Assembly (NCBI RefSeq): GCF_011759585.1
Contig: NZ_JAAOYV010000002.1
Location: 927,510 to 991,509, forward strand
Source: Frigoribacterium endophyticum
Lineage (GTDB): Bacteria > Actinomycetota > Actinomycetes > Actinomycetales > Microbacteriaceae
Direction of reading: 5' to 3'
DNA length: 64,000 nucleotides
Both the position numbers and the translations under genes were made by a program. Numbering within the stretch: the stretch's first letter is position 1; the number at the start of each line of letters is the position of its first letter. The notes below the pieces were generated by a model. The model was not told where the DNA came from. It made no database searches and was given only the letters and a program-made list of their open reading frames with translations. Of this stretch, positions 16,748 to 49,022 are shown piece after piece.

Positions 16748-16755
16748 GGACGGAC

Positions 16756-19052: not shown

Positions 19053-19085
19053 AGCGAGCGCTCGTCCTGAGCTGCTCAGGGGGGA

Positions 19086-31032: not shown

Positions 31033-31715
31033 GAGGCCACCTCGTCGCCGTCGCCGAGCAGCGCCGTGCGTGCCCGGCCGAGCGCCGTCGACAGCCGGGC
31101 GTCGACCAGGCCGGTGGGCAGGTCGGCCTCGGCGTCGCCGGGGCGGAGCGACGGGTCGGCGACGACCTCGACGCCGGCCGAGCGGGCGGCGTCGGCGACG
31201 AGGGAGGCGTCTGCCGGGTACAGGCGCACCCGCACGACGACGGAGGGGTCGAGGCCGTCGAGGGCCCGGGCGAGGGCGGCGCGGGCCGTGCGGCCCCCGC
31301 GCGGGTCGCCGTCGCGCGAGCGCTCGGAGGCGGCGACCTCGTAGCCGACCACCGCGGAGGCGAGGTCCAGCGCGGTCGCGACCAGCGCCTCCTCGGCCTC
31401 GTGCAGCACGGGCACGACGCGCTCCTCGAGGGCGCGGCCGGCGGCCGCCAGGGCCGTGAGGGAGGCGGCGGTCGCCTCCTGCAGGCGCGCCAGCGCGTCC
31501 GCGTGCTCGGCCTCGAGCACGGCTCGACGGGCCGTCAGCTCGCGGTCGGCGGCCCGGAGCCCGGCGGCGTAGCCCGCGGCGTGGCCTGAGGCCTCGGCAC
31601 GCGTGCGGCGCTCGACGTCGGGGTCGGCCTGGTCGGTCGCACGGGCACCGGTGAGCGACGGGTACACGAGGCGCGAGAAGGCGTCCTGGGCGGACGGGGC
31701 GTCCGGTCGGGACAT
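31029..31715 (-). CDS. fliH: Flagellar assembly protein FliH
   Basis: 228-aa regulator of FliI. Ala/Arg/Glu-rich coiled coil (residues 40-120) followed by the FliH C-terminal alpha/beta domain (VVVRVRLYPADASLV, VEVVADPSLRPGDAEADLPTGLVDARL). ATG at 31715 is chosen; no strong ribosome-binding site precedes it, in keeping with a leader controlled by other signals. It starts a new transcript: promoter at 31805-31831, CsrA-type hairpins at 31759-31797. Confidence 0.85.
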   Translation of the reverse strand: MSRPDAPSAQDAFSRLVYPSLTGARATDQADPDVERRTRAEASGHAAGYAAGLRAADRELTARRAVLEAEHADALARLQEATAASLTALAAAGRALEERVVPVLHEAEEALVATALDLASAVVGYEVAASERSRDGDPRGGRTARAALARALDGLDPSVVVRVRLYPADASLVADAARSAGVEVVADPSLRPGDAEADLPTGLVDARLSTALGRARTALLGDGDEVAS

Positions 31716-31758
31716 CACGGGATCGAGCACAGAGCAGCCGTTCGACGGTGGGGAGTGC

Positions 31759-31797
31759 GGCCGATCCGTGGCCAGGGAGGTGAGCGATCCGTGCTCA
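31759..31797 (-). promoter_or_regulatory. Two candidate CsrA-binding hairpins in fliH leader
   Basis: In the mRNA: UGAGC-ACGGAUC-GCUCA (31797-31781) and GGCC-ACGGAUC-GGCC (31773-31759). Both loops are identical, ACGGAUC. The same pair, with nearly the same spacing, is found in the flgB leader at 35945-35983, while surrounding bases differ. Confidence 0.55.
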
Positions 31798-31804
31798 GCT
31801 GCGA

Positions 31805-31831
31805 CTCTCGGCGGCCGCGCGGGGGGCGTTA
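31805..31831 (-). promoter_or_regulatory. Flagellar sigma (FliA-type) promoter of fliH operon
   Basis: Minus strand TAAC (31831-31828), 15-bp spacer, GCCGAGAG (31812-31805); the T of the usual GCCGATAG is G here. Leader to fliH about 83 nt. Confidence 0.65.
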
Positions 31832-31940
31832 GCGCTCGCCCCGAAGGGGGGCCGGGCCGCCGGCCGCCGGCGGAGAACGAGAGGGATCCGGCGCGGAGCA
31901 CCGGGGACGCCGCGATCCCGGGGCCGCCGCCGGCCGATCA

Positions 31941-31956
31941 CTCTCAAATTTGAGAG
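31941..31956. promoter_or_regulatory. AT-rich palindrome, candidate operator, copy 1
   Basis: CTCTCAAATTTGAGAG, a perfect 16-bp palindrome preceded by CA, in an otherwise extremely GC-rich gap between fliG and fliH. The second copy lies 71 bp away. Its base composition and symmetry suggest a dimeric repressor or activator site; no regulator can be named. Confidence 0.6.
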
Positions 31957-32011
31957 AGAGGGCTGCCGAGGGCGGGCGGGCGCCGCGGGGGGGGGCGGCC
32001 GGGCTACGCGC

Positions 32012-32031
32012 CACTCTCAAATTTGAGAGTG
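32012..32031. promoter_or_regulatory. AT-rich palindrome, candidate operator, copy 2
   Basis: A perfect 20-bp palindrome containing the same CTCTCAAATTTGAGAG core as copy 1, ending 22 bp before the fliG stop codon. The 71-bp centre-to-centre distance is close to seven helical turns, so two dimers could sit on the same face. Except for these, the fliH promoter and the leader hairpins, the gap 31716-32053 shows nothing. Confidence 0.6.
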
Positions 32032-32053
32032 ATCCGCCGCGGCGCGGGCGGGG

Positions 32054-33112
32054 CTAGTCGACGAGGGCGTCCTCGTCGGCGCGGTGCACCGTGATGGCGC
32101 CCTGGGCCTCGAGCTCGCGGATGGCGCGCACGACCTCGGCCCGCGCCTCCTCTACCTGCGACTTGCGCACCGGGCCCATCGACTGCAGCTCGTCGTCGAG
32201 CAGCTCGCGGTTGCGCTCGGAGACGTTGCCCCGGATGACCTCGGTGACGGCGGCGAGCGCGCCCTTCATGGCGGTCGCCAGCACGGCGGCGTCGATGCCG
32301 CGGAGCACCTGCTGGATGTCGCGCGACTCGAGCTTGACGATGTCCTCGAAGGTCAGCATGCGCGAGCGGACCTCCTCGGCGAGCGCCGGGTCGCGCTCGT
32401 CGAGGCCGTCGAGCAGGGCGCGCTCGGTGGCGCTGTCGCTGCGGTTGATGATCTCGACCAGGGGCTGGATGCCGCCGACGACCTCGACCTGCTCGCGCGG
32501 CGCGACGACGGCGCCGGCCCGCACCTTGAGGGTGGTCGCGACGATGCCGACGGCCTCCGGGGTCGCGGTGCCCATCGTGGCGATGGCCTGGGCGACGTCG
32601 GCGCGCACCTCGACGTCGAGCCCGGCCAGCACGGCGGAGGCCTGCTGCGGCCGGAGGTGCGCGAGCACGAGGGCGATGGTCTGCGGCAGCTCGCCGTCGA
32701 GCAGGGTGATGACCTGGCCCGGGTCGGCCTCGTCGAGGAACTCGAAGCTCTTCCCCATCGCGTTCGAGGCGAGGCGCTCCATCACGCCGGCGGCGCGCTC
32801 GGAGCCGAACGAGGCCTCGAGCAGGCCGACGGCGACGTCGTGGCCGCCGCGGCGCTGGTAGCGGCCGCTGACGCTGAGGTCGTGGAACTCCGCGACGGCC
32901 GACTCGGCCACCGCGGGGTCGACGCGGCGCAGCCGGACGATCTCGGCGGTGATCTCCTCCGCCTCCTCCTCGCTGAACTGCTTCATCACGGTGGCGGCGC
33001 GGGTCTGCTCCATCTGCATGAGGATCACCGCGACCTTCTGCGCACCGGTCAGGGGGGCGCCGCCCGCACCGGGGGCGGCGGTGCCGAGCCCGGCCAGGGG
33101 CACCAGGCTCAC
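32054..33112 (-). CDS. fliG: Flagellar motor switch protein FliG
   Basis: 352-aa rotor protein that receives torque from MotA. Seen: LTGAQKVAVILMQMEQTRAATVMKQFSEEEAEEITAEI in pieces at the N-terminus, EHPQ-like motif degenerated to DGELPQTIALVLAHLRPQQASAVL, and the C-terminal torque helix region with charged residues (SRMLTFEDIVKLESRDIQQVLR). GTG at 33112 overlaps the fliF stop. Length normal. Confidence 0.95.
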   Translation of the reverse strand: MSLVPLAGLGTAAPGAGGAPLTGAQKVAVILMQMEQTRAATVMKQFSEEEAEEITAEIVRLRRVDPAVAESAVAEFHDLSVSGRYQRRGGHDVAVGLLEASFGSERAAGVMERLASNAMGKSFEFLDEADPGQVITLLDGELPQTIALVLAHLRPQQASAVLAGLDVEVRADVAQAIATMGTATPEAVGIVATTLKVRAGAVVAPREQVEVVGGIQPLVEIINRSDSATERALLDGLDERDPALAEEVRSRMLTFEDIVKLESRDIQQVLRGIDAAVLATAMKGALAAVTEVIRGNVSERNRELLDDELQSMGPVRKSQVEEARAEVVRAIRELEAQGAITVHRADEDALVD

Positions 33113-34797
33113 GAGCCGACCCGCTGGTCCATCAGGCCGCGCAGCAGCTCGGCGGTCTTCTCCGGGTCGCGCTCGGCGAGGGCGTCGATCTCGGCGCGCT
33201 TGCGCTCGGCCGACACGTGCTCGGGCGAGGGCTCGGGGGCGTCGACGCTGAGCAGCTGGGTGGGCGCGTCGTCGCCGAGCATGCGGCGGCCGGAGGCGCC
33301 GGCGTCGCCGAGGTCGAGCGGCACCGTGGCGTCCCAGGTCTGGGCCGGGGCGCCGGCGCTCAGCTCGCCGAGGTCGATCTCCTCCCGGGCCTGGCGGCGG
33401 CTGCGCTTCGCGAAGACGATCATCGCGACGATGATCGCCAGGGCGATCGCGCTGACGATGCCGACGGTGCGGACGGTGCTCCACATCGCGGCGTCCGCGG
33501 CGGCGGCGTCGGCGGCGGCGAGCGCCTCCTTCGCGGCGTCGGCGCCCGAGGTGTCGAAGTCGACCAGGGCGACCTGCACGTCGTCGCCGCGGGCCGCGTC
33601 GATGCCGGCCGCGGCCGTGACAAGGTCGTTGATGCTCTGCAGGTTGACGTTCTTCGCCGCGTTCGCGTCGAGGGCGACCGAGACGGTCTGTCGGCTGACG
33701 CCTCCCGAGGGCACGCTCATCGTCTCGGTGGTCTTGTCGACAGCGTTGTTCTTCGTCGCCGACTCGTTGACGTAGCCGTCGTCGCCCGCGGCGCCGCCGG
33801 CGGCGGTGCCGCCCGCGGTCGCGGTGTTGTTCGGCACGGCGATGTTGTCGGGGCCGAGCACGCCCGTCGCCCCGGTGCCGCCGGCCCCGGCGGCTCCCGC
33901 TCCGTACTGCTCGGTGGTGCTCGACTCGCTGAGAGCGATCGGGCCCGTGGTGGGCTGCGAGAACGACTCGGTGACGCGGGTTCCGGCGTCCTGGTCGAGG
34001 TCGGCGGCGACCACGACCGACGAGTTGCCGACGCCCACCACCTTGTCGAGCATCGCCTGCACCGACGACTGGACCTTGGTCTCGTAGTCGCCCGCCTGGT
34101 CGCCCGCGCCTCCCACGGCCCCGGTGCCGATCTGCGAGAGCACGGCCCCCGAGGCGTCGGTGACGGCGACGTCAGTGGTCTTCATGCCCTCGACGGAGGC
34201 GCTGGTCAGGTTCACGATCGCCTGCACCTGCTGGTCGGTGAGGGTCGCGCCGCCCTGCGTCTCGACGAAGACGGAGGCCGTCGGGTCCTTCTGCTCGGAG
34301 ACGAAGACGCTCTCCTCCGGCACCGCGAGCTGCACGCTCGCGGTCTTCACGCCCTTCATCGCCATGATCGTCTTGGCGAGTTCGCCCTCGATGGCGCGCT
34401 TGTAGGTGACGTCCTGCTGGAACTCCGACGAGGTGACGCCCATGGTGTCGAGCAGCGAGTAGCCGCCCTCGCCGTTCGTCGACGGCAGCCCCGCCGCGGC
34501 CGCGGTGAGGCGCTCCTGGTAGACGCTCTCCTCCGGCACGAGGATCGTCTGGCCGCCGGCCGTCAGCTGGTACGGCACGCCGTCGGCCTTGAGCTGCTCG
34601 ACGATGGCGCTCGCGTCGACCGGGTCGATGCCGCTGAACAGCGGGGTGTAGGTCGGCTTCGTCAGCCAGCTCGTCAGCGCGAACGCGCCGAGCGCGAGGG
34701 CCGCGACGAGGATGACGACGATGGTCTTCTGGGCGACCGAGAAGCCGGCCAGGGTGGCGCGCAGCTTGTCGAGCGTGCCCTTCAGTGCGGTGGGCAT
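33109..34797 (-). CDS. fliF: Flagellar MS-ring protein FliF
   Basis: 562-aa membrane ring protein, base of the motor. Two transmembrane helices (VAQKTIVVILVAALALGAFAL near residue 25; VRTVGIVSAIALAIIVAMIVF near 445), with the ring-building domains between (YTPLFSGIDPVDASAIVEQLKADGVPYQL, KRAIEGELAKTIMAMKGVKTASVQLAVPEESVF in pieces). The C-terminus (ERDPEKTAELLRGLMDQR) is the FliG-binding peptide. ATG at 34797 overlaps the fliE stop. Confidence 0.96.
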   Translation of the reverse strand: MPTALKGTLDKLRATLAGFSVAQKTIVVILVAALALGAFALTSWLTKPTYTPLFSGIDPVDASAIVEQLKADGVPYQLTAGGQTILVPEESVYQERLTAAAAGLPSTNGEGGYSLLDTMGVTSSEFQQDVTYKRAIEGELAKTIMAMKGVKTASVQLAVPEESVFVSEQKDPTASVFVETQGGATLTDQQVQAIVNLTSASVEGMKTTDVAVTDASGAVLSQIGTGAVGGAGDQAGDYETKVQSSVQAMLDKVVGVGNSSVVVAADLDQDAGTRVTESFSQPTTGPIALSESSTTEQYGAGAAGAGGTGATGVLGPDNIAVPNNTATAGGTAAGGAAGDDGYVNESATKNNAVDKTTETMSVPSGGVSRQTVSVALDANAAKNVNLQSINDLVTAAAGIDAARGDDVQVALVDFDTSGADAAKEALAAADAAAADAAMWSTVRTVGIVSAIALAIIVAMIVFAKRSRRQAREEIDLGELSAGAPAQTWDATVPLDLGDAGASGRRMLGDDAPTQLLSVDAPEPSPEHVSAERKRAEIDALAERDPEKTAELLRGLMDQRVGS

Positions 34798-35162
34798 CAG
34801 GCCTGCATCCTCATGATCTCGGTGAAGGCGTCGACGGCCTTGTTGCGGACGGCGCTGACCAGCTCGAGGGTGACCTGGGCGCGCGTGGCGGCGATGGTGG
34901 CGTCGTGGATGTCGGTGAGGTCGCCGGTGACGGCCTTCACGGCGAGGGTCTTGGCCTCGCCCTGCAGCTGCTGGAGGCCCTCGACGGCGCCGACCATGCT
35001 CGCGCCGAAGGTCGCGCCGGAGGCGGTGGGCGCCCCGGCCACGCCGGTCACGTCGGCGACGCCGCCGGCCCCGCCCGCGCCTCCCGCCTGCATCAGCGAC
35101 GACACGTCGGCGTAGCCGGACGGCTGAACGGCTCCGAGAGCCGGGATCCCTGCGACAGGCAT
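34797..35162 (-). CDS. fliE: Flagellar hook-basal body protein FliE
   Basis: 121-aa rod adapter between the MS ring and FlgB. The conserved C-terminal part (VKAVTGDLTDIHDATIAATRAQVTLELVSAVRNKAVDAFTEIMRM in pieces) is clear; the first 50 residues are Gly/Ala-rich. ATG at 35162 overlaps the flgC stop. Confidence 0.92.
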   Translation of the reverse strand: MPVAGIPALGAVQPSGYADVSSLMQAGGAGGAGGVADVTGVAGAPTASGATFGASMVGAVEGLQQLQGEAKTLAVKAVTGDLTDIHDATIAATRAQVTLELVSAVRNKAVDAFTEIMRMQA

Positions 35163-35557
35163 CAGCCACGTCCGATCTGTAGTGCGGCCTCGTAGGCCGT
35201 CTTGGCACGGTCGACGACAGCGGCGTTGGCCTGGTAGCCGCGCTGCGCCATGATCAGGTCGCCCATCTGGGCGCCGAGGTCGATGTCGGGCATCCGGACG
35301 TAGCCCTCGGCGTCGGCCAGGGGGTGGTCGGGGAGGTACGTGACGCGGCCGGCCTCGCTGCCGTAGCGGTCGGCACGGACGAAGACGCCGGAGGTGCCGG
35401 CGCCCTCCTGCACCTCGACGTAGCGGGCCTGGAAGGCGGTGTCGTCCATCGACTTGACGGTGTTGACGTTGGCGATGTTGTCGGAGACGGCGTCGAGCCA
35501 CTTGCGGTGGACGGTGAGGCCGGTGCTCGCGATGCCGATCGCGTCGAAGGCGGGCAT
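35162..35557 (-). CDS. flgC: Flagellar basal-body rod protein FlgC
   Basis: 131-aa proximal rod protein. N-terminal FDAIGIASTGLTVHRKWLDAVSDNIANVNT and C-terminal MPDIDLGAQMGDLIMAQRGYQANAAVVDRAK, the standard rod-protein termini, with the FlgC-type central YVEVQE region. ATG at 35557 overlaps the flgB stop. Confidence 0.95.
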   Translation of the reverse strand: MPAFDAIGIASTGLTVHRKWLDAVSDNIANVNTVKSMDDTAFQARYVEVQEGAGTSGVFVRADRYGSEAGRVTYLPDHPLADAEGYVRMPDIDLGAQMGDLIMAQRGYQANAAVVDRAKTAYEAALQIGRG

Positions 35558-35901
35558 CAGCTCGTCCGGAACGCGGCGCGCACGGCCGTCAGCTCGGAGT
35601 TCATCGCCTGCGTGGCGAACTGGTAGCGGAGCACCGTGTCGACGTTCGAGAGCGTCTCGGTGTCGAGGTTGACGTTGTTGCCGTCGAGCCGCGTCGGCTC
35701 GAGCGACCGGCTCGTGGTCGCGCCGACGGCCCCGCTGCCCTGCGAGACGGAGCGGCCGAGGGCCTCCTCGAACGCCACCCGCTTGGCCTGGTAGCCGGGG
35801 GTGTTCACGTTCGCGATGTTGGCGGCGATGGTCTTCTGGCGCAGCGAGAGGCCGTCGAGGGCGCTCTGCAGGGCGGCCTGGGTCACGGATTCGAGGGGCA
35901 T
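35557..35901 (-). CDS. flgB: Flagellar basal-body rod protein FlgB
   Basis: 114-aa proximal rod protein, normal length. Contains LDGLSLRQKTIAANIANVNTPGYQAKRVAFEEAL in pieces and LRYQFATQAMNSELTAVRAAF near the end. First gene of the flgB-flgC-fliE-fliF-fliG transcript; the promoter is at 35991-36017 and the leader of about 83 nt contains two CsrA-type hairpins. ATG at 35901. Confidence 0.94.
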   Translation of the reverse strand: MPLESVTQAALQSALDGLSLRQKTIAANIANVNTPGYQAKRVAFEEALGRSVSQGSGAVGATTSRSLEPTRLDGNNVNLDTETLSNVDTVLRYQFATQAMNSELTAVRAAFRTS

Positions 35902-35944
35902 GCACGTTCCAGGGGTCTCGTGTCTCCGTGTCAGGGAGACGAGG

Positions 35945-35983
35945 GGCCGATCCGTGGCCGGGGTGTCGAGCGATCCGTGCTCA
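35945..35983 (-). promoter_or_regulatory. Two candidate CsrA-binding hairpins in flgB leader
   Basis: In the mRNA: UGAGC-ACGGAUC-GCUCG (35983-35967, one U-G pair) and GGCC-ACGGAUC-GGCC (35959-35945). Loops and second stem are identical to those of the fliH leader. A further CACGGAG lies nearer the start codon. Confidence 0.55.
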
Positions 35984-35990
35984 GGGCGCT

Positions 35991-36017
35991 CTATCGGCGG
36001 TGCACGGGGGTGCGTAA
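35991..36017 (-). promoter_or_regulatory. Flagellar sigma (FliA-type) promoter of flgB operon
   Basis: Minus strand TTAC (36017-36014), 15-bp spacer, GCCGATAG (35998-35991). Confidence 0.7.
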
Positions 36018-36053
36018 GCTCACGCCCCCGGAGTGGGGGCTCCGCGTCGACAC

Positions 36054-36109
36054 ACCACGTCCTCGCACGCGAACCACGCCGCGGCGTGGTTCGTCTGCGA
36101 GGACGTGGT
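36054..36109. repeat. Dispersed double-hairpin repeat, copy 2 (best preserved)
   Basis: Outer stem ACCACGTCCTCGCA (36054-36067) with perfect complement at 36096-36109; inner perfect 24-bp palindrome at 36070-36093 centred on GCCGCGGC. It lies between the flgB promoter and the 3' end of the response-regulator gene, 48 bp past its stop, where it could act as terminator. Confidence 0.8.
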
Positions 36110-36156
36110 TCTCCTCGACGGTCGGGAGGCGAGCAGCGCGGGAGGCGCGGGTCGGG

Positions 36157-36876
36157 TCAGGCGCGGAGGTAGCGGTGCTCGGGCCGGCCGGCCGACCCGT
36201 AGCGGAGCTGCATGGCGAGGTGGCCGTCGGCGGCGAGGGAGGCCAGGTACCGCTGGGCGGTCGCCCGGCTGACCCCGACCTGGTCGGCGACCTCGGCGGC
36301 GCTGAGCTCGGCGGCGGAGGCGACCACCGCCTCCAGCACGGCCTGCTCCGTCGCCGAGCGCGACCGCGACGACGCCCGCGCGTCGCCGGAGTGCAGGATG
36401 CGCTGCGCGCGCTCGACCGCCTCCTGGTCGACGCCGCCGCGCTCGCCGGCGCCCCGCCCGGCTGCGCCGCCGCCCTGCTCGGGCCCGTGGTCGTCGAGCA
36501 CGTGCTCGAAGCGCCGGTAGGCCCGCAGCCGCTCGTCGAGCAGCTCGGCCGCGAAGGGCTTGATCAGGTAGGCGAGCGCCCCGCGGCGGAGGGCGGTGCG
36601 CACCGTCGACGGGTCGGAGGCCGCGCTGAGCACGAAGGCGTCGACGTCGAGCTCGCGCAGCAGGTCGAGCCCGCTGCCGTCGGGCAGGTAGAGGTCGAGC
36701 AGCACGAGGTCGACCGGCTGCTCGGCCAGGGCCCGGCGGGCGGCCGCGACCGTGCCGACCGGGGGCAGGGCCCGGAAGCCGTCCTGCGCGTCGACCCGCG
36801 CGCGGTGCACGTCGGCGACCCAGAAGTCGTCGTCGACGACGAGCACGGTCAGCGGGGAGGCGGGCGTGGCGGTCAC
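36157..36876 (-). CDS. Citrate/C4-dicarboxylate-type response regulator (CitB/DcuR-like)
   Basis: 239 aa. Receiver domain residues 8-125 with acidic pocket VVDDDF, phospho-acceptor Asp61 (LVLLDLYLPDG), and the switch Ser/Lys positions (LSAASD; LIKPF). The C-terminal part has a helix-turn-helix (LSAAEVADQVGVSRATAQRYLASL) like CitB/DctR regulators. The linker is Gly/Ala-rich. GTG at 36876 overlaps the kinase stop. It probably controls the transporter gene at 38954. Confidence 0.9.
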   Translation of the reverse strand: MTATPASPLTVLVVDDDFWVADVHRARVDAQDGFRALPPVGTVAAARRALAEQPVDLVLLDLYLPDGSGLDLLRELDVDAFVLSAASDPSTVRTALRRGALAYLIKPFAAELLDERLRAYRRFEHVLDDHGPEQGGGAAGRGAGERGGVDQEAVERAQRILHSGDARASSRSRSATEQAVLEAVVASAAELSAAEVADQVGVSRATAQRYLASLAADGHLAMQLRYGSAGRPEHRYLRA

Positions 36877-38741
36877 GAGGTGCTCCTGGAGGGGTCGGGG
36901 CGGCCGGCGAGGCCGGGGGCGGGCGGCACCGCGCCGACGGGCGGCACCGCGCCGGCGGGCTGCACCGTGCCGACGGGCTGCACCGCACCGACGAGCCGGG
37001 CGCAGAAGACGGCGCCGTGGCCGTCGCCGCCGGGCGAGCCGAGCCAGACGTCGCCGCCGCGGCGACGCGCGGTGTCGCGCGACAGGGGCAGCCCGAAGCC
37101 GAGGCCGTGCACGGGGTCGTGCCCCGCGCCTCCCCCGGGCTCGCCGTCGTCGGCCTGCGACGGGCCGGGCACGTCGCGGCGGCGCTCGAAGAGCCGCTCG
37201 GGCCGCGCGACCCCGTCGCCGGAGTCCATCACCGAGAGGTGCAGGTCGGGGCCGTCGTCGAGCAGCTCGACCTCCACCCAGGCCGGCGTCGTGCGGCCCG
37301 CGACGGCGGCGCGCACCGCGTTGTCGACCAGGTTGCCGAGCACCGTCGTCACGTCTCCCGCCTCGACCACCTGCCCCGCGACGAGCGTCTCGGGGCCGAG
37401 CTGCAGCAGCACGCCGCGCTCCGCCGCCTCGACGCCCTTGGCGCCGACGAAGGCCTGGAGGTACGGCTCGGCGAGCCGGTCGGCGTGCTTCACCGGGTAG
37501 CGCAGCGGCCCGTGCTCGAGCACGTCGGCGAGGTAGCCCTTCGCCTGCTCCACCCGCCCGATCTCGAGCAGGCCGGCGACGGCGTGCAGCCGGTTCGCGA
37601 ACTCGTGGCGCTGCGCGCGCAGCGCCGTCGTCATCGCGCCCACCGCGTCGAGCCGGCGGGTCAGCGCCTCGACGGCCGTGCGGTCGCGCAGCACGGCGAC
37701 GCGGCCGAGGTCGACGCCCTCGCGGGCCACCGGGCGCACGTCGACGATGAGCACCCGGGGGCCGACGACCAGCGTCGTGCCCGCGGGCCCGAGCGACCCC
37801 GCCGAGGGCGACCCCGAGGAGGCGCGGGCCGGGTCGAGCAGGTCGGCCAGCTCCCCCGGCAGCTCCAGCTCCGCGAGCGCCCGACCCACGACGTCGTCGC
37901 CCGCCGAGCCGAGCGCCAGCAGCTGCGCCGCCTGCTCGTTGCAGACGCTGACGCGGCCCTCCCGGTCGACCGCGAGCACCCCCTCCCCCACACCGCCGAG
38001 CACGGCCTGCTGGTTCTGCACCAGGGTCGCGAGGTCGTCGGGCTGGAGGCCCAGCGTGAGACGGTCGAGGCGACGGCGGATGAGCACCGACGCGACCACG
38101 CCGAGCAGGAGCGCGAGGGCCGCGACGCCGACCACCGGCAGGGAATCGCGCGCGACGGTGTCGTAGACACGGGCGGGGGCGTAGCCGACGCTGACCTCGC
38201 CGACGACGACCGGGCGCTCGCCGGGGGCCGCGTCGGGGGCGAAGACCGGCACCTTCGCGCGGGCGGAGTCACCGAGCGTGCCGCGCTCCCACGACACGGT
38301 CTCCTCGCCGCGGAGCGCCGCGTCGGGGCTCGTGCTGACGCGCTCGCCGATGCGGTCGGGCTCGGGGTGGGCGAGGCGGACGCCGCGGTCGTCGGTGACG
38401 ACGACGAAGAGGGCGCCGGTGCGCTGCTGCACCGACGAGGCCGTGAGCTGCAGCGGGCCCTCGGCGAGCGCCTCCTCGTCCAGGGCGGTGCCGTCGACGC
38501 TGAGGGTGGCGACCTCGCGGCGCACGTCGCCGTCGGCCGCGACGCTCTGCGCGACGGCGAGGGCGGTCGACTCGGCCTCGTGGGCCAGACGCTGCACGGC
38601 GACGCCGACGAACACGGCGGTGGTGAGCAGCACGACGGCGGTGACGACGGCCAGCTGCAGCAGCAGCACCTCGGTCGCGAACCGGCGCCGCGGCCGCGGC
38701 GGTCGGGCGCGGGCGCTCCGGGGTGAGCTGTCGTCGGTCAC
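36873..38741 (-). CDS. Citrate/C4-dicarboxylate-type sensor histidine kinase (CitA/DcuS-like)
   Basis: 622 aa. Transmembrane helix 1 near residues 24-46, periplasmic PAS-like sensor to about 195 (LFVVVTDDRGVRLAHPEPDRIGERV is the CitA/DcuS-type core with a ligand-binding HPxPxRIG pattern), helix 2 near 202-222, cytoplasmic PAS (about 245-350), dimerisation helix with phospho-acceptor His379 in AQRHEFANRLH, and ATPase with NLVDNAVRAA and a GLGFGLPLSRD box. The tail has VGTVQPAG/AVPPVG repeats. GTG at 38741; no good ribosome-binding site. Ligand (citrate or a C4-dicarboxylate) is inferred from the neighbour. Confidence 0.88.
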   Translation of the reverse strand: MTDDSSPRSARARPPRPRRRFATEVLLLQLAVVTAVVLLTTAVFVGVAVQRLAHEAESTALAVAQSVAADGDVRREVATLSVDGTALDEEALAEGPLQLTASSVQQRTGALFVVVTDDRGVRLAHPEPDRIGERVSTSPDAALRGEETVSWERGTLGDSARAKVPVFAPDAAPGERPVVVGEVSVGYAPARVYDTVARDSLPVVGVAALALLLGVVASVLIRRRLDRLTLGLQPDDLATLVQNQQAVLGGVGEGVLAVDREGRVSVCNEQAAQLLALGSAGDDVVGRALAELELPGELADLLDPARASSGSPSAGSLGPAGTTLVVGPRVLIVDVRPVAREGVDLGRVAVLRDRTAVEALTRRLDAVGAMTTALRAQRHEFANRLHAVAGLLEIGRVEQAKGYLADVLEHGPLRYPVKHADRLAEPYLQAFVGAKGVEAAERGVLLQLGPETLVAGQVVEAGDVTTVLGNLVDNAVRAAVAGRTTPAWVEVELLDDGPDLHLSVMDSGDGVARPERLFERRRDVPGPSQADDGEPGGGAGHDPVHGLGFGLPLSRDTARRRGGDVWLGSPGGDGHGAVFCARLVGAVQPVGTVQPAGAVPPVGAVPPAPGLAGRPDPSRSTS

Positions 38742-38953
38742 GAGCGTCAGCGTAACCGGGGCCGGGGAGGCGCGTGAGCAGAACGAGCAGAACGCCGACA
38801 ACGTGCGGAACGGCTCCAACGCGCAGAAGCGCGACGCGCCTCCGACCTGGCCGCTAGCGTGCCCGGACGCGCCGCGCACCCGACCGGCCTGCCCCCTCGG
38901 GGGCGGTGACGACGGGCCGGCCCACCGACACGCTCACGGACGAAGGAGTCCCG

Positions 38954-40456
38954 ATGCTCGTACTGCTCGGCTATCTGATGATCCTCACCTTCATGGTGCT
39001 GATCATGACGAAGCGGCTCTCGCCGATGCTCGCGCTGATCATGGTGCCGACGATCTTCGGCCTCTTCGCCGGCGCGGGGCTCGGCATCGGCGACATGGTG
39101 ATCGAGGCGGTCGGCGACCTCGCCCCGACCGCGGCCCTGCTGATGTTCGCGATCATGTACTTCGGGCTGATGATCGACGTCGGCCTGTTCGACCCGCTGG
39201 TGCGGCTCATCCTCCGCGCGACCGGCAACGACCCCGCGAAGGTCGTGCTCGGCACCGCCCTGCTGGCCGGGGCCGTCTCGCTCGACGGCGACGGCTCGAC
39301 CACCTTCATCGTGACGACGGCGGCCATGCTGCCGATCTACCTGCGGCTCGGCATGAGCCCGGTCGTGCTGACCTGCGTCGCCGGCCTGATCAACGGCACG
39401 CTGAACATCGTGCCCTGGGGCGGGCCGACCGTCCGCGCCGCGGCGGCGCTCAACGTCTCGCCGTCGGAGATCTTCGTGCCCCTCGTGCCGTCGCTCGTCG
39501 CCGGCCTCGTCATCGCGTTCGCCTTCGCCTGGCTGCTCGGGCTGCGTGAGCGGAAGCGCCTCGGCGGCAGCGTCTCGCTCGACACCGCGGCCGTCGCCGT
39601 GCCCCTCTCGAAGGCGATGGCGAACGCCGGGGCCGGCGTCGCCGAGGGCCGCGGCGTGTCGATGTTCACCAGCCCGACCGTGGCCCTCGGGCTGCGCGGC
39701 GGCCGCGCCGACGGGTCGCGGGCCGACGCCCCCGGGGAGCGCGCCGTCGACAACGCCGGCACGGGCCTGTCGGAGAACGGCACCCCCGGCGTCGGCACGA
39801 TGGCCGACACCATGCTCGACCCGACCCGCGAGACGCTGCGCCCGCGGCTGATCTGGTTCAATCTCGTGCTGACGGTCGCCGTGATGGTGCTGCTCGTGCT
39901 CGACCTCTTCCCGCTCGCCTACGTCTTCATGGTGGGCTCCGCGATCGCGCTGCTCGTCAACTTCCCGAAGGTGAAGCAGCAGACGGCCGAGATCGTCGCC
40001 CACGCGCCGAGCATCGTCGGCGTCGTCTCGATGGTGTTCGCCGCGGCCGTGCTGATCGGCGTGCTGAACGGCACCGGCATGGTCAGCGCCATGGCCGACT
40101 GGCTCGTCGACGTCATCCCCGACGCGATGGGGCCGTACCTCGCCGTCATCACGGGCCTGCTGAGCCTGCCGCTCACCTTCTTCATGAGCAACGACGCCTT
40201 CTACTTCGGCATCCTCCCCGTGCTCGCCGAGAGCGCCTCCGCGTTCGGCATCGAGCCCGTCGAGATGGCCCGCGCCTCGGTGATCGGCCAGCCGGTGCAC
40301 CTGCAGAGCCCGCTCGTGCCGGCCATCCTGCTGCTCGTCAGCCTCGCGAACGTCAACCTCGGCGACCACCACAAGAAGGTGCTCTGGAGGGCGGCCGTGG
40401 TGTCGGTCGTGATGCTCGTCGTCGCGGTCGTCGTCGGCGTCATCCCCTGGGGCTGA
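38954..40456 (+). CDS. CitMHS-family citrate-metal symporter
   Basis: 500 aa, about twelve membrane segments. Family signatures: MFAIMYFGLMIDVGLFDPLVRLILR, the loop AVSLDGDGSTTFIVTTAAMLPIY, VPWGGPTVRAAAAL, and near the end FFMSNDAFYFGILPVLAE and GQPVHLQSPLVPA. CitM-type proteins import citrate complexed with divalent metals. A hydrophilic loop of about 90 residues (around 215-305) is longer than usual. ATG at 38954 has GGAG 6 nt upstream. Divergent from the CitA/CitB-like pair that probably regulates it; the 211-bp gap holds no clear promoter. Confidence 0.9.
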   Translation: MLVLLGYLMILTFMVLIMTKRLSPMLALIMVPTIFGLFAGAGLGIGDMVIEAVGDLAPTAALLMFAIMYFGLMIDVGLFDPLVRLILRATGNDPAKVVLGTALLAGAVSLDGDGSTTFIVTTAAMLPIYLRLGMSPVVLTCVAGLINGTLNIVPWGGPTVRAAAALNVSPSEIFVPLVPSLVAGLVIAFAFAWLLGLRERKRLGGSVSLDTAAVAVPLSKAMANAGAGVAEGRGVSMFTSPTVALGLRGGRADGSRADAPGERAVDNAGTGLSENGTPGVGTMADTMLDPTRETLRPRLIWFNLVLTVAVMVLLVLDLFPLAYVFMVGSAIALLVNFPKVKQQTAEIVAHAPSIVGVVSMVFAAAVLIGVLNGTGMVSAMADWLVDVIPDAMGPYLAVITGLLSLPLTFFMSNDAFYFGILPVLAESASAFGIEPVEMARASVIGQPVHLQSPLVPAILLLVSLANVNLGDHHKKVLWRAAVVSVVMLVVAVVVGVIPWG

Positions 40457-40473
40457 CGCGTCGGCACCTTACG

Positions 40474-40529
40474 CGAGTGGTCACGGACTGCTGCTCCCGG
40501 CGACGGGAGGGGCAGTTCGTGACCACTCG
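40474..40529. terminator. Bidirectional terminator-like double hairpin after citrate transporter
   Basis: 18-bp outer stem CGAGTGGTCACGGACTGC (40474-40491) with its complement at 40512-40529 (one G-U pair), enclosing CTCCCG-GCGA-CGGGAG. It lies between convergent genes; no U tract follows, as is common in high-GC actinobacteria. Confidence 0.65.
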
Positions 40530-40563
40530 GCCGTGGGGGCGGGGGTCGGGGGGGGTGCGGGCG

Positions 40564-40977
40564 TCAGCCCGTGGCGTCGAGGTAGACCGGGCGCTCGGGC
40601 TGGTGCGAGGCCTCGACGGTGCGCACGACCTCGAGGTGCCGCAGCACGACGAGGCGCGCGTCGTCGATCTGGGCCAGGGCGTCGCGCTGGGCCGCGGCGA
40701 CGGCGGCCGCGCGGTCGGCGAGCTCCGCCGGCAGCGGCCCGAGGCCCGTCGGCGGCGTCCACGATAGGAGGCGCGGGGCCGAGTCGTCGAGGCCCGCCCC
40801 GCCGGTCGCGTCGACGGTCAGCGCGAGGGCCTCGAGCTCGTCGAGGGCGGCGGCCCACCCGGCGTGCGCGAGCACGTCGGTGTCGGCGACGGCCGCCGGC
40901 GCCTCAGCGGGGAGCACGTCGGTGTCGGCGACGGCCGCCGGCGCCTCAGCGGGGAGCACGTCGGCCTCAGGCGACAC
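40564..40977 (-). CDS. Protein of unknown function in fliT position, with tandem repeat
   Basis: 137 aa. It overlaps fliS by 11 bp and is the last gene of the fliC-fliD-fliS series, where many bacteria have the FliD chaperone FliT. The C-terminal 60 residues are predicted helical (LPAELADRAAAVAAAQRDALAQIDDARLVVLRHLEVV in pieces), as in FliT, but no specific signature is visible. Residues 6-33 are two exact copies of DVLPAEAPAAVADT, from a 42-bp tandem duplication. GTG at 40977. FliT-like role is inference from position. Confidence 0.55.
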   Translation of the reverse strand: MSPEADVLPAEAPAAVADTDVLPAEAPAAVADTDVLAHAGWAAALDELEALALTVDATGGAGLDDSAPRLLSWTPPTGLGPLPAELADRAAAVAAAQRDALAQIDDARLVVLRHLEVVRTVEASHQPERPVYLDATG

Positions 40978-41560
40978 CGAGCGCTCCGCCGAGCGACGAC
41001 GAGGAGGCGATGGTGGCGCCGTAGCCGGAGGTGGCGCTGCCGAACGCGGCGACCCCCGCCGGCTGCGGCAGGCCGGCCCCGGGCACCGCGGCGCCCGGCG
41101 AGGCGGGAGCCGGCAGCGGGACGCCCGCCGCGCCTCCGGCCTGCAGCGACGCCGCGGCGTCGTGCCAGGCCTGGCGGAGCGGGTCGAGCAGGCCGACGAC
41201 CTCGCGGGTCAGCTCGACGTCGTGGTGCACGTTCGCGTTGACGAGCGCGGTCGAGGTGTAGCCGTAGAGCGCGAGCAGCCCCTCGCCGCCGTCCCAGACG
41301 TCGACCTTGAGCGACGACGACAGCTCGGCGACGATCGCCTGCGCGTGCAGCAGCTGCTCGGCGGCGGTGCCCCAGTCGGCGACGAGCTGCGCCGCCTCGG
41401 CGCGGCCGAGGTCGAGCATGAGGCGGTCGTAGAGCATCGTGACGAGCTGCACGGGCGTCGCCGAGAGCACCGCCTCGGCGTTGTACTGGGCACGCTGACG
41501 CTGCGCGACGGCGGTGGGCCGGGGGGCGGCGGCGAAGGCCGCGAAGGAGGAGGCGTCCAT
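40967..41560 (-). CDS. fliS: Flagellin chaperone FliS
   Basis: 197 aa. FliS core from about residue 20: YNAEAVLSATPVQLVTMLYDRLMLDLGRAE, then helices with SSLKVDVWDGGEGLLALYGYTSTALVNANVHHD in pieces. A 50-residue Ala/Gly/Pro-rich C-terminal tail is added to the normal 130-residue protein. It binds flagellin and prevents premature polymerisation. ATG at 41560, 2 bp after the fliD stop. Confidence 0.93.
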   Translation of the reverse strand: MDASSFAAFAAAPRPTAVAQRQRAQYNAEAVLSATPVQLVTMLYDRLMLDLGRAEAAQLVADWGTAAEQLLHAQAIVAELSSSLKVDVWDGGEGLLALYGYTSTALVNANVHHDVELTREVVGLLDPLRQAWHDAAASLQAGGAAGVPLPAPASPGAAVPGAGLPQPAGVAAFGSATSGYGATIASSSSLGGALGVA

Positions 41561-41562
41561 GG

Positions 41563-42957
41563 TCACTTCGTCTGGGCGGTGAGGGAGGCGACCTGGCTGC
41601 TGAGCCAGGTCGACTGCGAGTTGAGGTTGCTGAGCGTGACCTCGAGGTTCGAGTACACCGTCTGCAGGGTCGCGCGGCGGGTGGCGAGCCGGAGGTCCCA
41701 GTCGGCGATGCGGCCGCCGAGGTCCTTGACGACCGACTGCTGGCCGGTGATCACGGTCGTGAGCGTGCCCGAGGCCTTGTCGGAGGCGCTGCTCGCGGCC
41801 TTCGCGATGCGGTCGGCCAGCGTGCTCAGCATCGACTGGGTGCCGACGGGGTCGGCGGCGAGCGCCGCGGAGAACTTGTCGGCGTCGTACGAGAACGAGC
41901 CGTCCTTCTGGATCACGACGCCGATCGTCGAGGGCGACTTGCCGCCGATCGGCTGCGAGGCCGCCGACTGGAGCGCCTGCTGCACGGCCCGGACCGACGA
42001 CTCGCCGGTGTAGGCCCCGCCCTTGACGGTGGTGTTGCCGGTCGCGCCCGTCGTCGACGTGGTGGCCTGGCCGGCGGTGATCGCGCCGAGCACGGCCGTG
42101 AGGCTCGAGACGAGCCCCGAGGCGACCTTGCCGGCGGCGGTCGCGTCGCGTCCGATCATGATCGTGACCGGGGCGGCGGCCCCGACGGCGGCGGCGGTCA
42201 CGTCGACGGAGACGCCGGGCAGCAGATCCGTGAACGTGTTGGAGGCGCTGGTCACCACCTGCTCGGCGGCGGTGCCCGCGTAGAGGGTCAGCGAGGCGTC
42301 GCGCGCCGTCTTGACGACGGCGGCGCCGGGCTCGGCGAGGAGGTCGGGGGCCGTGCCGGCCGTCGTCTCGGCCGCGGTGCCGCGGTGCACGGCGAAGTCG
42401 CCGGTCGCGCCCGAGGTGGCCGAGGTGAGCTGCAGCCGGTAGACGGCGGCGCCGGACGCGTCCTTGCCGACGGGCACCTTCACGGCCTTGACGCCGGCGG
42501 CGGAGTCGTTGACGGCCTTCACGACGTCGTCGAGGGACGAGGAGGCGGCGGTCACCTCGGTCTGCTTCCCGGCGCTCGAGGTGAAGGTCAGCGTCGCCGG
42601 GCTCGTGGGCCAGGCGGTCATCGCGGCCGTGACCGCGGTCTTCGCCTGCGCCGTGGCGCCGACGGTGAACTCGATGCTGCCCGAGGCGGCGCCGGCCGCG
42701 GCCTTCGCGGTGACGGCGGTCGAGCTGCTCGTGGCGGTGAAGAGGTCGATCGAGCCGGGCTTCGCGGCGGTCGTGGCCGTGGTCGCGAGGGCGGCGACCT
42801 GGGCGTTCAGCGTCTGCATCGACGTGACGAACGAGTTGGCCGCGGTGACCTTGTTCTTCAGGAGCGTCTGGGGCGTCGCCTCGATCGACATCAGCGAGTT
42901 GATCAGCGACGTGGTGTCGAGGCCGCTCGCGAGGCCGTCGATGCCGAGGTTCGCCAT
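41563..42957 (-). CDS. fliD: Flagellar filament cap protein FliD
   Basis: 464-aa filament cap. Begins LGIDGLASGLDTTSLINSLMSIEATPQTLLKNKV, the FliD N-terminal motif; C-terminal domain with IGVVIQKDGSFSYDADKFSAALAADP and the terminal coiled coil GGRIADWDLRLATRRATLQTVYSNLE in pieces. Middle domain is Ala/Thr-rich. ATG at 42957. No flagellar promoter is visible directly upstream, so it is probably transcribed by readthrough from fliC past the hairpin at 43012. Confidence 0.95.
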   Translation of the reverse strand: MANLGIDGLASGLDTTSLINSLMSIEATPQTLLKNKVTAANSFVTSMQTLNAQVAALATTATTAAKPGSIDLFTATSSSTAVTAKAAAGAASGSIEFTVGATAQAKTAVTAAMTAWPTSPATLTFTSSAGKQTEVTAASSSLDDVVKAVNDSAAGVKAVKVPVGKDASGAAVYRLQLTSATSGATGDFAVHRGTAAETTAGTAPDLLAEPGAAVVKTARDASLTLYAGTAAEQVVTSASNTFTDLLPGVSVDVTAAAVGAAAPVTIMIGRDATAAGKVASGLVSSLTAVLGAITAGQATTSTTGATGNTTVKGGAYTGESSVRAVQQALQSAASQPIGGKSPSTIGVVIQKDGSFSYDADKFSAALAADPVGTQSMLSTLADRIAKAASSASDKASGTLTTVITGQQSVVKDLGGRIADWDLRLATRRATLQTVYSNLEVTLSNLNSQSTWLSSQVASLTAQTK

Positions 42958-43011
42958 GGTGGTGCCTCTCGCGGTGGGGATCGGGCGGGTGGGGCGGGGT
43001 GGAGAGCGTCG

Positions 43012-43067
43012 GGTGCGCGACCGGCGCGCTCGGGGGGAGAGGATCAGCTGCTCCCCCGTCGCGCACC
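43012..43067 (-). terminator. Terminator-like hairpin between fliC and fliD
   Basis: Outer arms GGTGCGCGAC (43012-43021) and GTCGCGCACC (43058-43067), inner arms GGGGGAG (43033-43039) and CTCCCCC (43051-43057), with an 11-nt bulge on one side. It may reduce readthrough from strongly expressed fliC into fliD-fliS. Confidence 0.5.
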
Positions 43068-43159
43068 GGTCACGCGCCCGACCAGGGTGGTGCTCGGCGC
43101 CTGCTGGGATCAGGCGTCGGGCCGGTCGCCGACGAGTCGGTGACCGTGTCGCCCGCCGA

Positions 43160-44329
43160 CTAGCGGAGGAGCGACAGGACGCCCTGGGTGCTCTGGTTCG
43201 CCTGCGCGAGCATCGCCGTGCCGGCCTGGCTCAGGATGTTCGAGCGGGTGTACTTGACCATCTCCTGCGCCATGTCGGTGTCGCGGATGCGCGACTCGGC
43301 CGCGGTCAGGTTCTCCTTCGCCACGTTCGTCACGTTGATCGCGTGCTCGAAGCGGTTCTGCACGGCACCGAGCTCCGAGCGGGCCGTGGAGACCGTCTGG
43401 ATCTGGGCGTCGATCAGCTTGATGGAGGCCTGGGCGTTGTCGGCCGTGTCGAACTTGAGGCCACCGGTGGTGGTGGCTCCGGCAGTGCCCGCGACGACGC
43501 CGGTGCCGGCGTCGTCGGCGACGCTGACGGCGCCGCCGTTGTTGGCGGTGACGACGATGCCGGTGCCGGCGCCGTTGGCGTCCTTGGTCACGGAGACCGA
43601 GAAGTTGGCCGAGAAGGCCGCGTCCTTGGTCAGCGCGTCCGCGTAGCCCTGCACGCTGTCGAACTTGCCGGCAGCACCGAGGTCGGCCGTCTTGATCGTC
43701 TTGGTCTCGCTGCCGCTGGTGACGCTGAACGTCTGGACGCCCGCGATGTCGGCCGGGGCGGCGACCGTGAAGGACGAGCCCGTGGTGCCGAGGTCGCCAC
43801 CGGTGAGGTTGTTCGCGATGGCCGAGACGTTCGCCTTCGACAGGTCGACCGTGATCTGGCTGTCCGCACCGCTGTTGGCGCCGACCTGGAACTTGAGGGC
43901 GGTGTTGCTGCCGTCGAGCAGGTTGGTGCCGTTGAAGTTCGTCGACGCCGAGATGCGCGTCAGCTCCTTCTGCAGGGCCCCGACCTCGGTCGTGATCGCC
44001 TTGCGCGAGTCGGCGTTGTTCGAGTCGTTGCCGGCCTGCACGGCGAGGTCACGCATGCGCTGCAGGATCGAGTGGGTCTCGGTGAGGCCACCCTCAGCGG
44101 TCTGGACGACGGAGATGCCGTCCTGGGCGTTGCGCGCGGCCACCGTCAGTCCGCCGACCTGCGAGCGCAGGCCCTCGGAGATCGAGAGGCCGGCCGCGTC
44201 GTCAGCGGCACGGTTGATGCGGAGGCCCGACGAGAGCTTCTCGAGGCTCTTCGACAGGTCGTTCTGCGTGGCGTTCAGGTTGCGGTACGTGTTGTTCGCA
44301 GCGAGGTTGGTGTTGATCTGCATGCCCAT
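43160..44329 (-). CDS. fliC: Flagellin
   Basis: 389-aa filament subunit. N-terminal D0/D1: MQINTNLAANNTYRNLNATQNDLSKSLEKLSSGLRINRAADDAAGLSI in pieces; C-terminal ARSELGAVQNRFEHAINVTNVAKENLTAAESRIRDTDMAQEMV in pieces, ending LSLLR. The central 160 residues are a variable domain with Gly/Thr/Asn. ATG at 44329 with GAGGA just upstream; Met3 is an alternative. The leader carries a CsrA-type hairpin and a GGA in the ribosome-binding site, so translation is likely CsrA-controlled. Confidence 0.97.
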   Translation of the reverse strand: MGMQINTNLAANNTYRNLNATQNDLSKSLEKLSSGLRINRAADDAAGLSISEGLRSQVGGLTVAARNAQDGISVVQTAEGGLTETHSILQRMRDLAVQAGNDSNNADSRKAITTEVGALQKELTRISASTNFNGTNLLDGSNTALKFQVGANSGADSQITVDLSKANVSAIANNLTGGDLGTTGSSFTVAAPADIAGVQTFSVTSGSETKTIKTADLGAAGKFDSVQGYADALTKDAAFSANFSVSVTKDANGAGTGIVVTANNGGAVSVADDAGTGVVAGTAGATTTGGLKFDTADNAQASIKLIDAQIQTVSTARSELGAVQNRFEHAINVTNVAKENLTAAESRIRDTDMAQEMVKYTRSNILSQAGTAMLAQANQSTQGVLSLLR

Positions 44330-44361
44330 GGTGTTTCCTCTTCCGTGACTGGGTGGTGTTC

Positions 44362-44383
44362 GTCAGCCCGTCCGTGGGCTGAC
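44362..44383 (-). promoter_or_regulatory. Candidate CsrA-binding hairpin in fliC leader
   Basis: Perfect 8-bp stem GUCAGCCC/GGGCUGAC with the loop ACGGAC, beginning almost at the predicted 5' end of the mRNA. A second GGA lies in the ribosome-binding site (GAGGA, about 44336-44340). The arrangement of one hairpin site plus one site on the ribosome-binding site is that of the Bacillus hag leader. Confidence 0.65.
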
Positions 44384-44391
44384 ACCGGCTA

Positions 44392-44418
44392 CTGTCGGCC
44401 GGCTGCCGGTGGTCGTTA
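44392..44418 (-). promoter_or_regulatory. Flagellar sigma (FliA-type) promoter of fliC
   Basis: Minus strand TAAC (44418-44415), 15-bp spacer, GCCGACAG (44399-44392). Predicted start near 44385. Confidence 0.75.
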
Positions 44419-48621: not shown

Positions 48622-49022
48622 GCGCCGTGACGACGACGGTGACCTTCACCGCGCCTCCCTTCGGCCTCGAGCCGGCCGTCGACTTCGTGCTCGACGACAT
48701 CGACGGGGCCGTCGGGCTGCACGCCCTCCGCGCCGTCGACCCCGCGACCCGCGAGATCGACGCCTCCGTGCGCCTCTTCGTGCTCGACGCCGCCGTGCAC
48801 CTGCCCGACTACTCGCCGGTGCTGACCGACGAGCAGACGTCCGCGCTCGACCTCCGCTCGGCCGACGAGGCCCTGCTGCTCGTCGTCGCGACGCCGGCCG
48901 AGACGGGCATGACCGTCAACCTGCTCGCCCCGGTCGTCGTCAACGGCCGCACGGGATCGGGCACCCAGCTCATCCTCGAGGGCCAGGACTGGCCGCTGCG
49001 CGCGGAGCTCGCCGCGCGCTGA
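48618..49022 (+). CDS. fliW: Flagellar assembly factor FliW (CsrA antagonist)
   Basis: 134-aa beta-barrel protein. FliW binds flagellin and CsrA alternately, releasing CsrA repression when flagellin is exported. Seen: FGLEPAVDFVLDDIDGAVGLHALRAVD, PATREIDASVRLFVLDAAVHLPDYSPVLTDEQ and VNLLAPVVVNGRTGSGTQLILEGQDWPLRAEL in pieces. ATG overlaps the flgL stop. Its partner csrA lies 41 kb away at the other end of the cluster. Confidence 0.94.
   Translation: MSAVTTTVTFTAPPFGLEPAVDFVLDDIDGAVGLHALRAVDPATREIDASVRLFVLDAAVHLPDYSPVLTDEQTSALDLRSADEALLLVVATPAETGMTVNLLAPVVVNGRTGSGTQLILEGQDWPLRAELAAR

Follow-up and report, generated by a model that had tools for sequence, protein, structure and literature searches.

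CsrA is a small RNA-binding protein whose published motif is ANGGA carried in a hairpin loop (PMC4894983), and in Gram-positive bacteria control by CsrA and FliW is best known for flagellin. The hag mRNA of Bacillus subtilis provides the precedent for exclusion of the ribosome by CsrA (PMC7652899), flaA of Campylobacter jejuni is likewise a CsrA target, and many other flagellar mRNAs of C. jejuni also bind the protein (PMC4894983), so that CsrA activity beyond flagellin is not new in itself. In Escherichia coli, CsrA protects the flhDC mRNA from RNase E through two sites near its 5′ end (PMC7652899). The window analyzed here (G000:C2:927510-991509, the whole 64-kb stretch, within the 3.32-Mb genome of Frigoribacterium endophyticum) holds a flagellar cluster that includes, by family models, csrA, fliW, a FliA/WhiG-family sigma factor and flagellin, and the leaders of its flgB, fliH, fliC and flbD genes contain small hairpins with GGA in the loop. 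We consider it highly probable that CsrA binds these hairpins, that the 5′ leaders carrying them belong to flagellar mRNAs made from sigma-28 promoters, and that FliW is the antagonist. This judgement covers the sites and not the sign of control at flgB, and it draws on motif, pairing, conservation, position relative to the promoter and co-occurrence with csrA. What we infer from sequence is that CsrA binds, that its dimer bridges two sites, where transcription starts and which sign the control at flgB has.

The likeness to hag and flaA, where an upstream ANGGA hairpin, an ANGGA at the Shine-Dalgarno site, a sigma-28-like promoter, csrA and fliW are found as they are here, covers only the flagellin half of the system; the hairpin pair of the flgB leader is extra. 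The flagellin part was previously proposed, since a 2008 paper on Kineococcus radiotolerans had pointed out csrA in the flagellar cluster and, at the Shine-Dalgarno sequence of flagellin, a CsrA site like that of hag (PMC2587704), in a passage that gives a 9-of-12-base match to one hag site and neither a flgB element nor a comparative test. The flgB pair resembles flhDC in that an early flagellar mRNA has two CsrA-type sites close to its 5′ end (PMC7652899), but flhDC encodes a master regulator, whereas flgB starts the rod operon and its 5′ end is predicted.

Among RNA families, TwoAYGGAY (RF01731; 168 positions) has, to judge by its name, two hairpins with AYGGAY-like loops, and has been proposed as a possible CsrA-binding small RNA of Clostridia (PMC4333381). 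No covariance match to it was obtained in the window at the gathering threshold, in the flgB leader at E ≤ 10 or in 20 loci at E ≤ 0.1; a search of 27 genomes at E ≤ 1 also gave none, but the control genomes were silent too, so that this result says little alone. Membership in a described RNA family was rejected for want of a relevant Rfam match, and a sponge RNA of the CsrB/RsmZ type was rejected for these sites on the grounds that they lie in mRNA leaders, none with more than two of the hairpins (no genome search for a small RNA of that type was made). CsrA and FliW were among the proteins sought in a 2023 survey of flagella in Actinobacteria (PMC10746217). Searches of titles and abstracts on CsrA/FliW and actinobacterial flagella gave no account of the flgB pair, an earlier mention for the Actinoplanes cluster being possible. 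The comparison suggests that the flgB pair is a separate element, unmatched in the Rfam models tried.

Four flagellar leaders and their promoters

The initial annotation had proposed a family of hairpins with ACGGAC or ACGGAUC loops in the leaders of flbD, fliH, flgB and fliC, an observation that is confirmed here. A scan of both strands of the window for a loop of exactly ACGGAC or ACGGATC closed by at least 4 Watson-Crick pairs returned exactly five stem-loops in 64 kb, all in the fliC, flgB and fliH leaders, against about 0.33 expected from the count of such words and the hairpin rate of the window. The bulged flbD hairpin escapes a perfect-stem scan and counts as a sixth site; what had been listed as another copy at 19034 is this same flbD site. 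No 7-base loop of the window is more over-represented than ACGGATC, which ties with its reverse complement. The P of 2e-5 for the motif is post hoc, the motif having been picked from the same sequence, so that the independent test lies in the relatives. A further candidate, ACGGAC at 40483, was set aside; by eye, it sits in an arm of a long inverted repeat. All hairpin sites are on the minus strand, which is the sense strand for the flagellar genes:

35968-35982, minus: flgB leader hairpin 1, GAGC-ACGGAUC-GCUC (loop 35972-35978)
35945-35959, minus: flgB leader hairpin 2, GGCC-ACGGAUC-GGCC (loop 35949-35955)
31781-31797, minus: fliH leader hairpin 1, stem as in flgB hairpin 1 (loop 31786-31792; match to covariance model R1, below)
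31758-31774, minus: fliH leader hairpin 2, stem as in flgB hairpin 2 (loop 31763-31769; R1 match)
44361-44384, minus: fliC leader hairpin, core UCAGCCC-ACGGAC-GGGCUGA (loop 44370-44375)
44342-44346, minus: second ANGGA (ACGGA) at the fliC Shine-Dalgarno site, 29 nucleotides (nt) from the first
19034-19052, minus: flbD leader hairpin, CGCCCC-ACGGAC-GG(U)GGCG with a 1-nt bulge (loop 19041-19046; found by eye)
19060-19072, minus: flbD leader hairpin GCUC-AGGAC-GAGC

All four leaders stand behind one sigma-28-like promoter type (TWACG-N14-GCCGAnAG). This shared promoter, the ANGGA at the fliC Shine-Dalgarno site and the AGGAC hairpin of flbD had been missed initially. The genes and promoters concerned are as follows:

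35557-35901, minus: flgB (TIGR01396, 83 bits), first in a flgB-flgC-fliE-fliF-fliG run whose later names come from the order of open reading frames and not from family models
35991-36017, minus: sigma-28-like promoter of the flgB operon, TTACG-N14-GCCGATAG (pattern search)
31029-31730, minus: fliH (PF02108, 30 bits), proposed start GTG at 31730
31805-31831, minus: sigma-28-like promoter of fliH (pattern search)
43160-44329, minus: fliC, flagellin (best matches are flagellin models, under curated cut-offs)
44392-44418, minus: sigma-28-like promoter of fliC, the same promoter type, with GCCGACAG
18651-19007, minus: flbD (PF06289)
19086-19112, minus: sigma-28-like promoter of flbD (pattern search)

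Conservation of the flgB pair and co-occurrence with csrA

The comparison within the family used 249 genomes, the window's own included, and flagellar stretches were taken from 40 of the other 76 genomes with flgB and csrA; start codons were extrapolated from tblastn. Two hairpins are found in the flgB leader of all 41 family genomes read, typically gagc-ANGGAYN-gctc followed by ggcc-ANGGAYN-ggcc with loop starts 21-28 nt apart. The loop positions A, G, G and A are constant and the second position is mostly C, otherwise T, G or A. Loop constancy in relatives against varying stems had been named as one of the points on which the initial proposal would stand or fall, and the relatives bear it out: ANGGA is kept in the loop of hairpin 2 in 41/41 leaders (this hairpin was located by GGCCA-N-GGA, and all 41 passed, but those bases were selected for) and of hairpin 1 in 40/41 (AGGA in G066). 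A strict scan for ANGGA hairpins in the 100 nt upstream of flgB recovers at least one in 41/41 leaders and at least two in 40/41, compared to shuffled means of 1.07 and 0.0 and an antisense count of 1/41. Chance or base composition as the source of the hairpins is rejected on shuffle and antisense controls. Hairpin 1 starts 8 nt past the −10 element in 28 of 39 family leaders and 61 of 76 named loci, close to where the first base is expected; the pair apparently lies at the 5′ end of the mRNA.

From the 41 leaders a 48-position covariance model, R1, was built and searched in the same 249 genomes. Of the 77 csrA-positive genomes, 75 have a match of at least 36.9 bits beside flgB, among them 34 of the 36 that lie outside the training set. 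It also matches upstream of flgB in 80/80 named loci, these being the best 80 of 545 from a FlgB alignment, several of them training genomes under their names; scores run from 28.5 to 62.6 bits, and the loci include Curtobacterium, Cryobacterium, Leifsonia, Arthrobacter, Sinomonas, Planctomonas and Terrabacter. When the pair was sought separately by regular expression, it turned up in 78/80, the exceptions being L160, whose leader outruns the scanned stretch, and L206, whose hairpin 2 is mismatched. In L160 (Frigoribacterium sp. CFBP 13712, about 9835-10000) the stretch from hairpin 2 to the flgB start is expanded by GCAGCA/GCACGCA repeats. R1 can be used to find the element elsewhere.

The pair also extends beyond the family. 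Among 31 flgB leaders from other families of the class, the strict scan finds at least one ANGGA hairpin in 27 and two in 19 (shuffled 0.9 and 0.0), and a looser scan, which admits other GGA loops and 3-base-pair (bp) stems and was run without a shuffle control, finds two in 30/31. The stems of hairpin 2 differ between families while the loop is kept (GGCC/GGCC, CGCC/GGCG, GCCG/CGGC, GCCA/UGGC and AGCGCC/GGCGCU). As for the protein, csrA and flgB are each present in 77/249 family genomes, with identical genome lists (G177 being counted for flgB on a below-cut-off FlgB match), and a class sample of 296 genomes contains csrA in 37, flgB in 36 and both in 34; csrA occurs without flgB in G256, G352 and G481, and flgB without csrA in G271 (80% complete) and G280 (weak match). 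Of 72 genomes tried (38 of the 77 from the family, 34 from the class), 69 have FliW, and it is missing in G352, G481 and G271.

In the window, as initially stated, csrA and fliW share the cluster with the leaders:

7536-7784, minus: csrA (one match in the whole genome)
48618-49022, plus: fliW, CsrA antagonist family (PF02623)
44447-45277, minus: FliA/WhiG-family sigma factor gene (TIGR02479, under curated cut-off)

In alignments with CsrA and RsmE-type chains from solved structures, the encoded CsrA keeps the MLxLTR start and the REE motif. Its C-terminal extension can be aligned to CsrA in entry 5dmb; we take 5dmb to be a complex with FliW and 2jpp a complex with RNA.

Several observations weigh against this reading of the pair. 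Covariation in flgB is weak within the family: all 13 two-sided changes are in hairpin 1, 9 of them in the outermost pair, which is itself unpaired in 19/40 leaders, and hairpin 2 has none. The predicted folding of the flgB leader is moderate and varies with the assumed 5′ end, in that leaders folded alone with a 12-nt 5′ margin form hairpin 1 with P > 0.5 in 32/41 and hairpin 2 in 22/41, and with a 20-nt margin in 26/41 and 13/41; in Frigoribacterium there is competition from a GAGCG/CGCUC pairing, provided that the transcript includes those bases. The looser scan finds no hairpin upstream of flgB in G278, and R1 misses G177 (about 200 contigs, no strong match) and G185 (hairpin 1 decayed). 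Matches at E ≤ 0.01 occur in 41/172 csrA-negative family genomes, those shown scoring below 28 bits except for G203 at 33.9 bits, which was rejected as a real element; it sits in sequence that reads as coding and is presumably leuS-like. By its co-occurrence with flgB, csrA cannot be told apart from the rest of the flagellar genes. In other classes of the phylum (29 flgB loci from 49 such genomes), the pair is present in only 3/29 flgB leaders and csrA in 26/29 genomes, so csrA does not require the pair. Among sampled genomes the flgB element therefore looks to be largely a feature of this class; the flgB leaders of L259, L263 and L260 (families f69 and f84, other classes) also carry paired ANGGA hairpins.

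The occurrence of csrA without the pair outside the class would suit another RNA-binding protein, or mere stabilization of the 5′ end, as the basis of the pair, with csrA simply lost together with flgB and the flagellum, which would make the co-occurrence uninformative. We regard this as very improbable: the loop agrees with the motif published for CsrA (PMC4894983), a need for stability alone would leave the loop sequence free to vary, and the arrangement of sites at fliC matches known CsrA targets.

The fliC leader and possible outcomes of the proposed CsrA binding

Forty genomes had a fliC start in reach (G035, with no fliC in its 20-kb stretch and fliW about 61 kb away, was left out). In all 40, a single hairpin, CC-A[CT]GGA[TCA]-GG, lies 40-53 nt before the start; the site was located by the CC before the loop, which all 40 passed, but those bases were selected for. 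A second ANGGA lies at −12 to −18, at the Shine-Dalgarno site, in 40/40, and the two sites are 23-41 nt apart, mostly 27-33. The strict scan recovers the hairpin in 31/40 leaders against 0.86 in shuffled sequences and 0/40 in antisense, and elsewhere in the class in 20/25 against 0.71 (25 of 30 loci, leaving out L129, which is incomplete, and L143-L146, which are weak matches). Stem covariation, which is weak in flgB hairpin 1 and confined to differences between families in flgB hairpin 2, is clear here: two-sided changes occur in 6 of 9 pairs, and the covariation score is 0.295 compared to 0.164 for shuffles (0/500 reach the observed value) and at most 0.096 for slid partners. On this evidence the fliC leader looks like a CsrA target of the hag/flaA layout.

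Inverted repeats at a near-fixed distance from the −10 element, with arms that hardly vary within the family in the case of flgB hairpin 2, could alternatively be read as DNA operator dyads for a transcription factor acting just downstream of the promoter. The best-conserved part, however, is the non-palindromic center, and it is found in the sense orientation; arms change with pairing kept (in fliC, in flgB between families and in flbD across the bulge), and the same loop stands in fliC between unrelated arms. We judge operators to be the least probable of the explanations considered, close to excluded by these patterns.

The paired sites, 21-28 nt apart in flgB and 23-41 nt apart in fliC, fall within the distance that one CsrA dimer can bridge. 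In fliC, a dimer would bridge the upstream hairpin and the Shine-Dalgarno ANGGA and so block the ribosome, as in hag and flaA; repression by ribosome exclusion is favored there because all 40 leaders have their second site at the Shine-Dalgarno sequence and because of the hag precedent. In flgB and its fliH copy, one dimer would clamp the 5′ end through the two hairpins. By analogy with E. coli flhDC, the flgB pair may then affect mRNA lifetime through 5′-end protection, an outcome that we place first among the three considered while giving it less than even weight; it is favored because two sites near a predicted 5′ end resemble flhDC and because ANGGA is rare at the flgB start.

Second in our ranking, and a real possibility, is that CsrA acts through the pair as a repressor of rod-operon translation, as it would at fliC, by blocking ribosome loading or restructuring the leader, CsrA being mostly described as a repressor (PMC7652899). 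Four genomes (G303, G394, G455 and G499) have a third ANGGA adjoining the flgB start, and a plain GGA falls within −20 to −5 in up to 17/41 family leaders, including 2 with ANGGA, so that a weaker CsrA contact at the flgB ribosome site is possible, which also counts against a purely 5′-end clamp. On the other hand, those 2/41 leaders with ANGGA compare to 40/40 for fliC, and the second flgB loop lies 31-63 nt upstream of the extrapolated start.

A third outcome, which we think unlikely, is that the flgB leader serves chiefly to titrate CsrA as a decoy, such that transcription of the rod operon relieves fliC repression. The paired site mostly comes without an ANGGA at the ribosome site, the flaA mRNA of C. 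jejuni titrates CsrA (PMC4894983), and the cassette has been copied to fliH and, separately, before a FliJ-like gene in G069, all of which would suit a decoy; yet each leader offers sites for only a single dimer, and they always lie in cis at flgB, which, as we reason, a decoy would not need.

Returning to a 5′-end clamp at flgB, flagellin accumulating on FliW would free CsrA, flagellin synthesis would stop, and the rod and export mRNA would be spared or favored. It is rather doubtful, but conceivable, that this extends to a general scheme for Actinomycetes in which a single sigma-28-like promoter type serves early and late flagellar genes alike and CsrA sets the building order post-transcriptionally through two leader designs of opposite outcome, a 5′ clamp stabilizing the rod/export mRNA at flgB and a ribosome-site block at fliC, with FliW reporting the progress of the filament. 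What the leaders do suggest is that the building of the flagellum is controlled post-transcriptionally at more steps than the filament alone: the flgB pair stands at the head of the rod operon in most of the flagellated genomes that were sampled from one class, and one small RNA-binding protein may control early and late flagellar genes via different leader designs.

Copies at fliH, variable sites at flbD and neighboring features

The initial annotation extended control beyond flagellin to the rod, export and motor operons. The flgB pair, widespread in the class, supports this for the rod operon, while the fliH pair turns out to be a copy and not an independent case. The Frigoribacterium fliH leader consists of a flgB-type promoter and both hairpins, followed by codons in the fliH frame that resemble the start of FlgB: the N-termini of FliH in 6 named loci translated read MLESVM, MLDSVM, MLDPA or MPDPV, the window has VLDPVM from the GTG at 31730, with the FlgB-like VLDPV as its first codons, and FlgB of many relatives has LESVT after the first codon. 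The 12 best FlgB matches (85-96% identical, among the best 80 of 545) are all labelled Frigoribacterium, and 11 of these 12 loci with at least 85% FlgB identity have a second R1 match at fliH, the contig of the twelfth (L157) ending first; it is likewise present in all 5 genomes of the genus within the family sample, counting that of the window. Two metagenome-assembled genomes labelled Frigoribacterium (L192 and L223, 74-75% identity) have the flgB match only. Independent recruitment at fliH was considered and found unlikely given the similar promoter, both hairpins and the FlgB-like N-terminus. The fliH pair is, on sequence grounds, best taken as a genus-level duplicate of the flgB promoter-leader cassette with a single origin, so flgB and fliH are not two independent cases. 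The element seems to travel as such a cassette. A separate copy of the pair, with its own promoter, is found in G069 (L061:6415-6462) before a FliJ-like gene (PF02050, below cut-off).

The ACGGAC hairpin of flbD is present as proposed, with its bulge. By eye, both it and the AGGAC-loop hairpin are kept in 5/5 leaders of the genus, the window included, and in G218 the outer stem of the bulged hairpin has changed from C-G to U-A. Across the family the strict ANGGA scan finds a hairpin in 4/35 flbD leaders, equal to the best of 200 shuffles. Admitting AGGA[ACT] in a 5-nt loop as well as ANGGA, a widening chosen after inspection of the same leaders, raises this to 15/35 against 1.0 shuffled (maximum 5) and 0 in antisense; the remaining 20/35 have neither type. 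The stems are unrelated among leaders (gctc/gagc, gcac/gtgc, gcgc/gcgc, ggccc/gggcc). The flbD leaders would hold related, more variable candidate CsrA sites.

In the window, the promoters of fliM and of flgN (the flgN-flgK-flgL-fliW run) lead into leaders without the hairpin element. In the family, the strict hairpin occurs in 1/31 flgN leaders, with no excess over shuffles, and in 4/36 sigma-factor leaders, where the best of 200 shuffles gives 3 yet the antisense strand 5, so that these were not counted. The pattern TWACG-N13-15-GCCGAKAG occurs 5 times genome-wide, always inside the window, before fliM, flbD, fliH, flgB and flgN. The fliM promoter (16747-16782, minus) ends about 8 nt ahead of the GTG start of the gene, which is identified as fliM by PF02154; with the start codon so close to the −10 element, the fliM mRNA is probably leaderless. 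The fliM promoters of G004 and G091 have the same look.

Two further features of the window lie near these operons. Between the flgB operon and the fliD/fliC part, 36157-40456 holds a gene for a CitMHS citrate transporter and those of a two-component pair resembling DcuS/DcuR. The interval from fliG to the fliH promoter contains two copies of the perfect palindrome CTCTCAAATTTGAGAG, at 31943-31954 and 32016-32027, 73 bp apart; among the 6-base loops of the window AAATTT shows the strongest over-representation, and these palindromes have an operator-like appearance.

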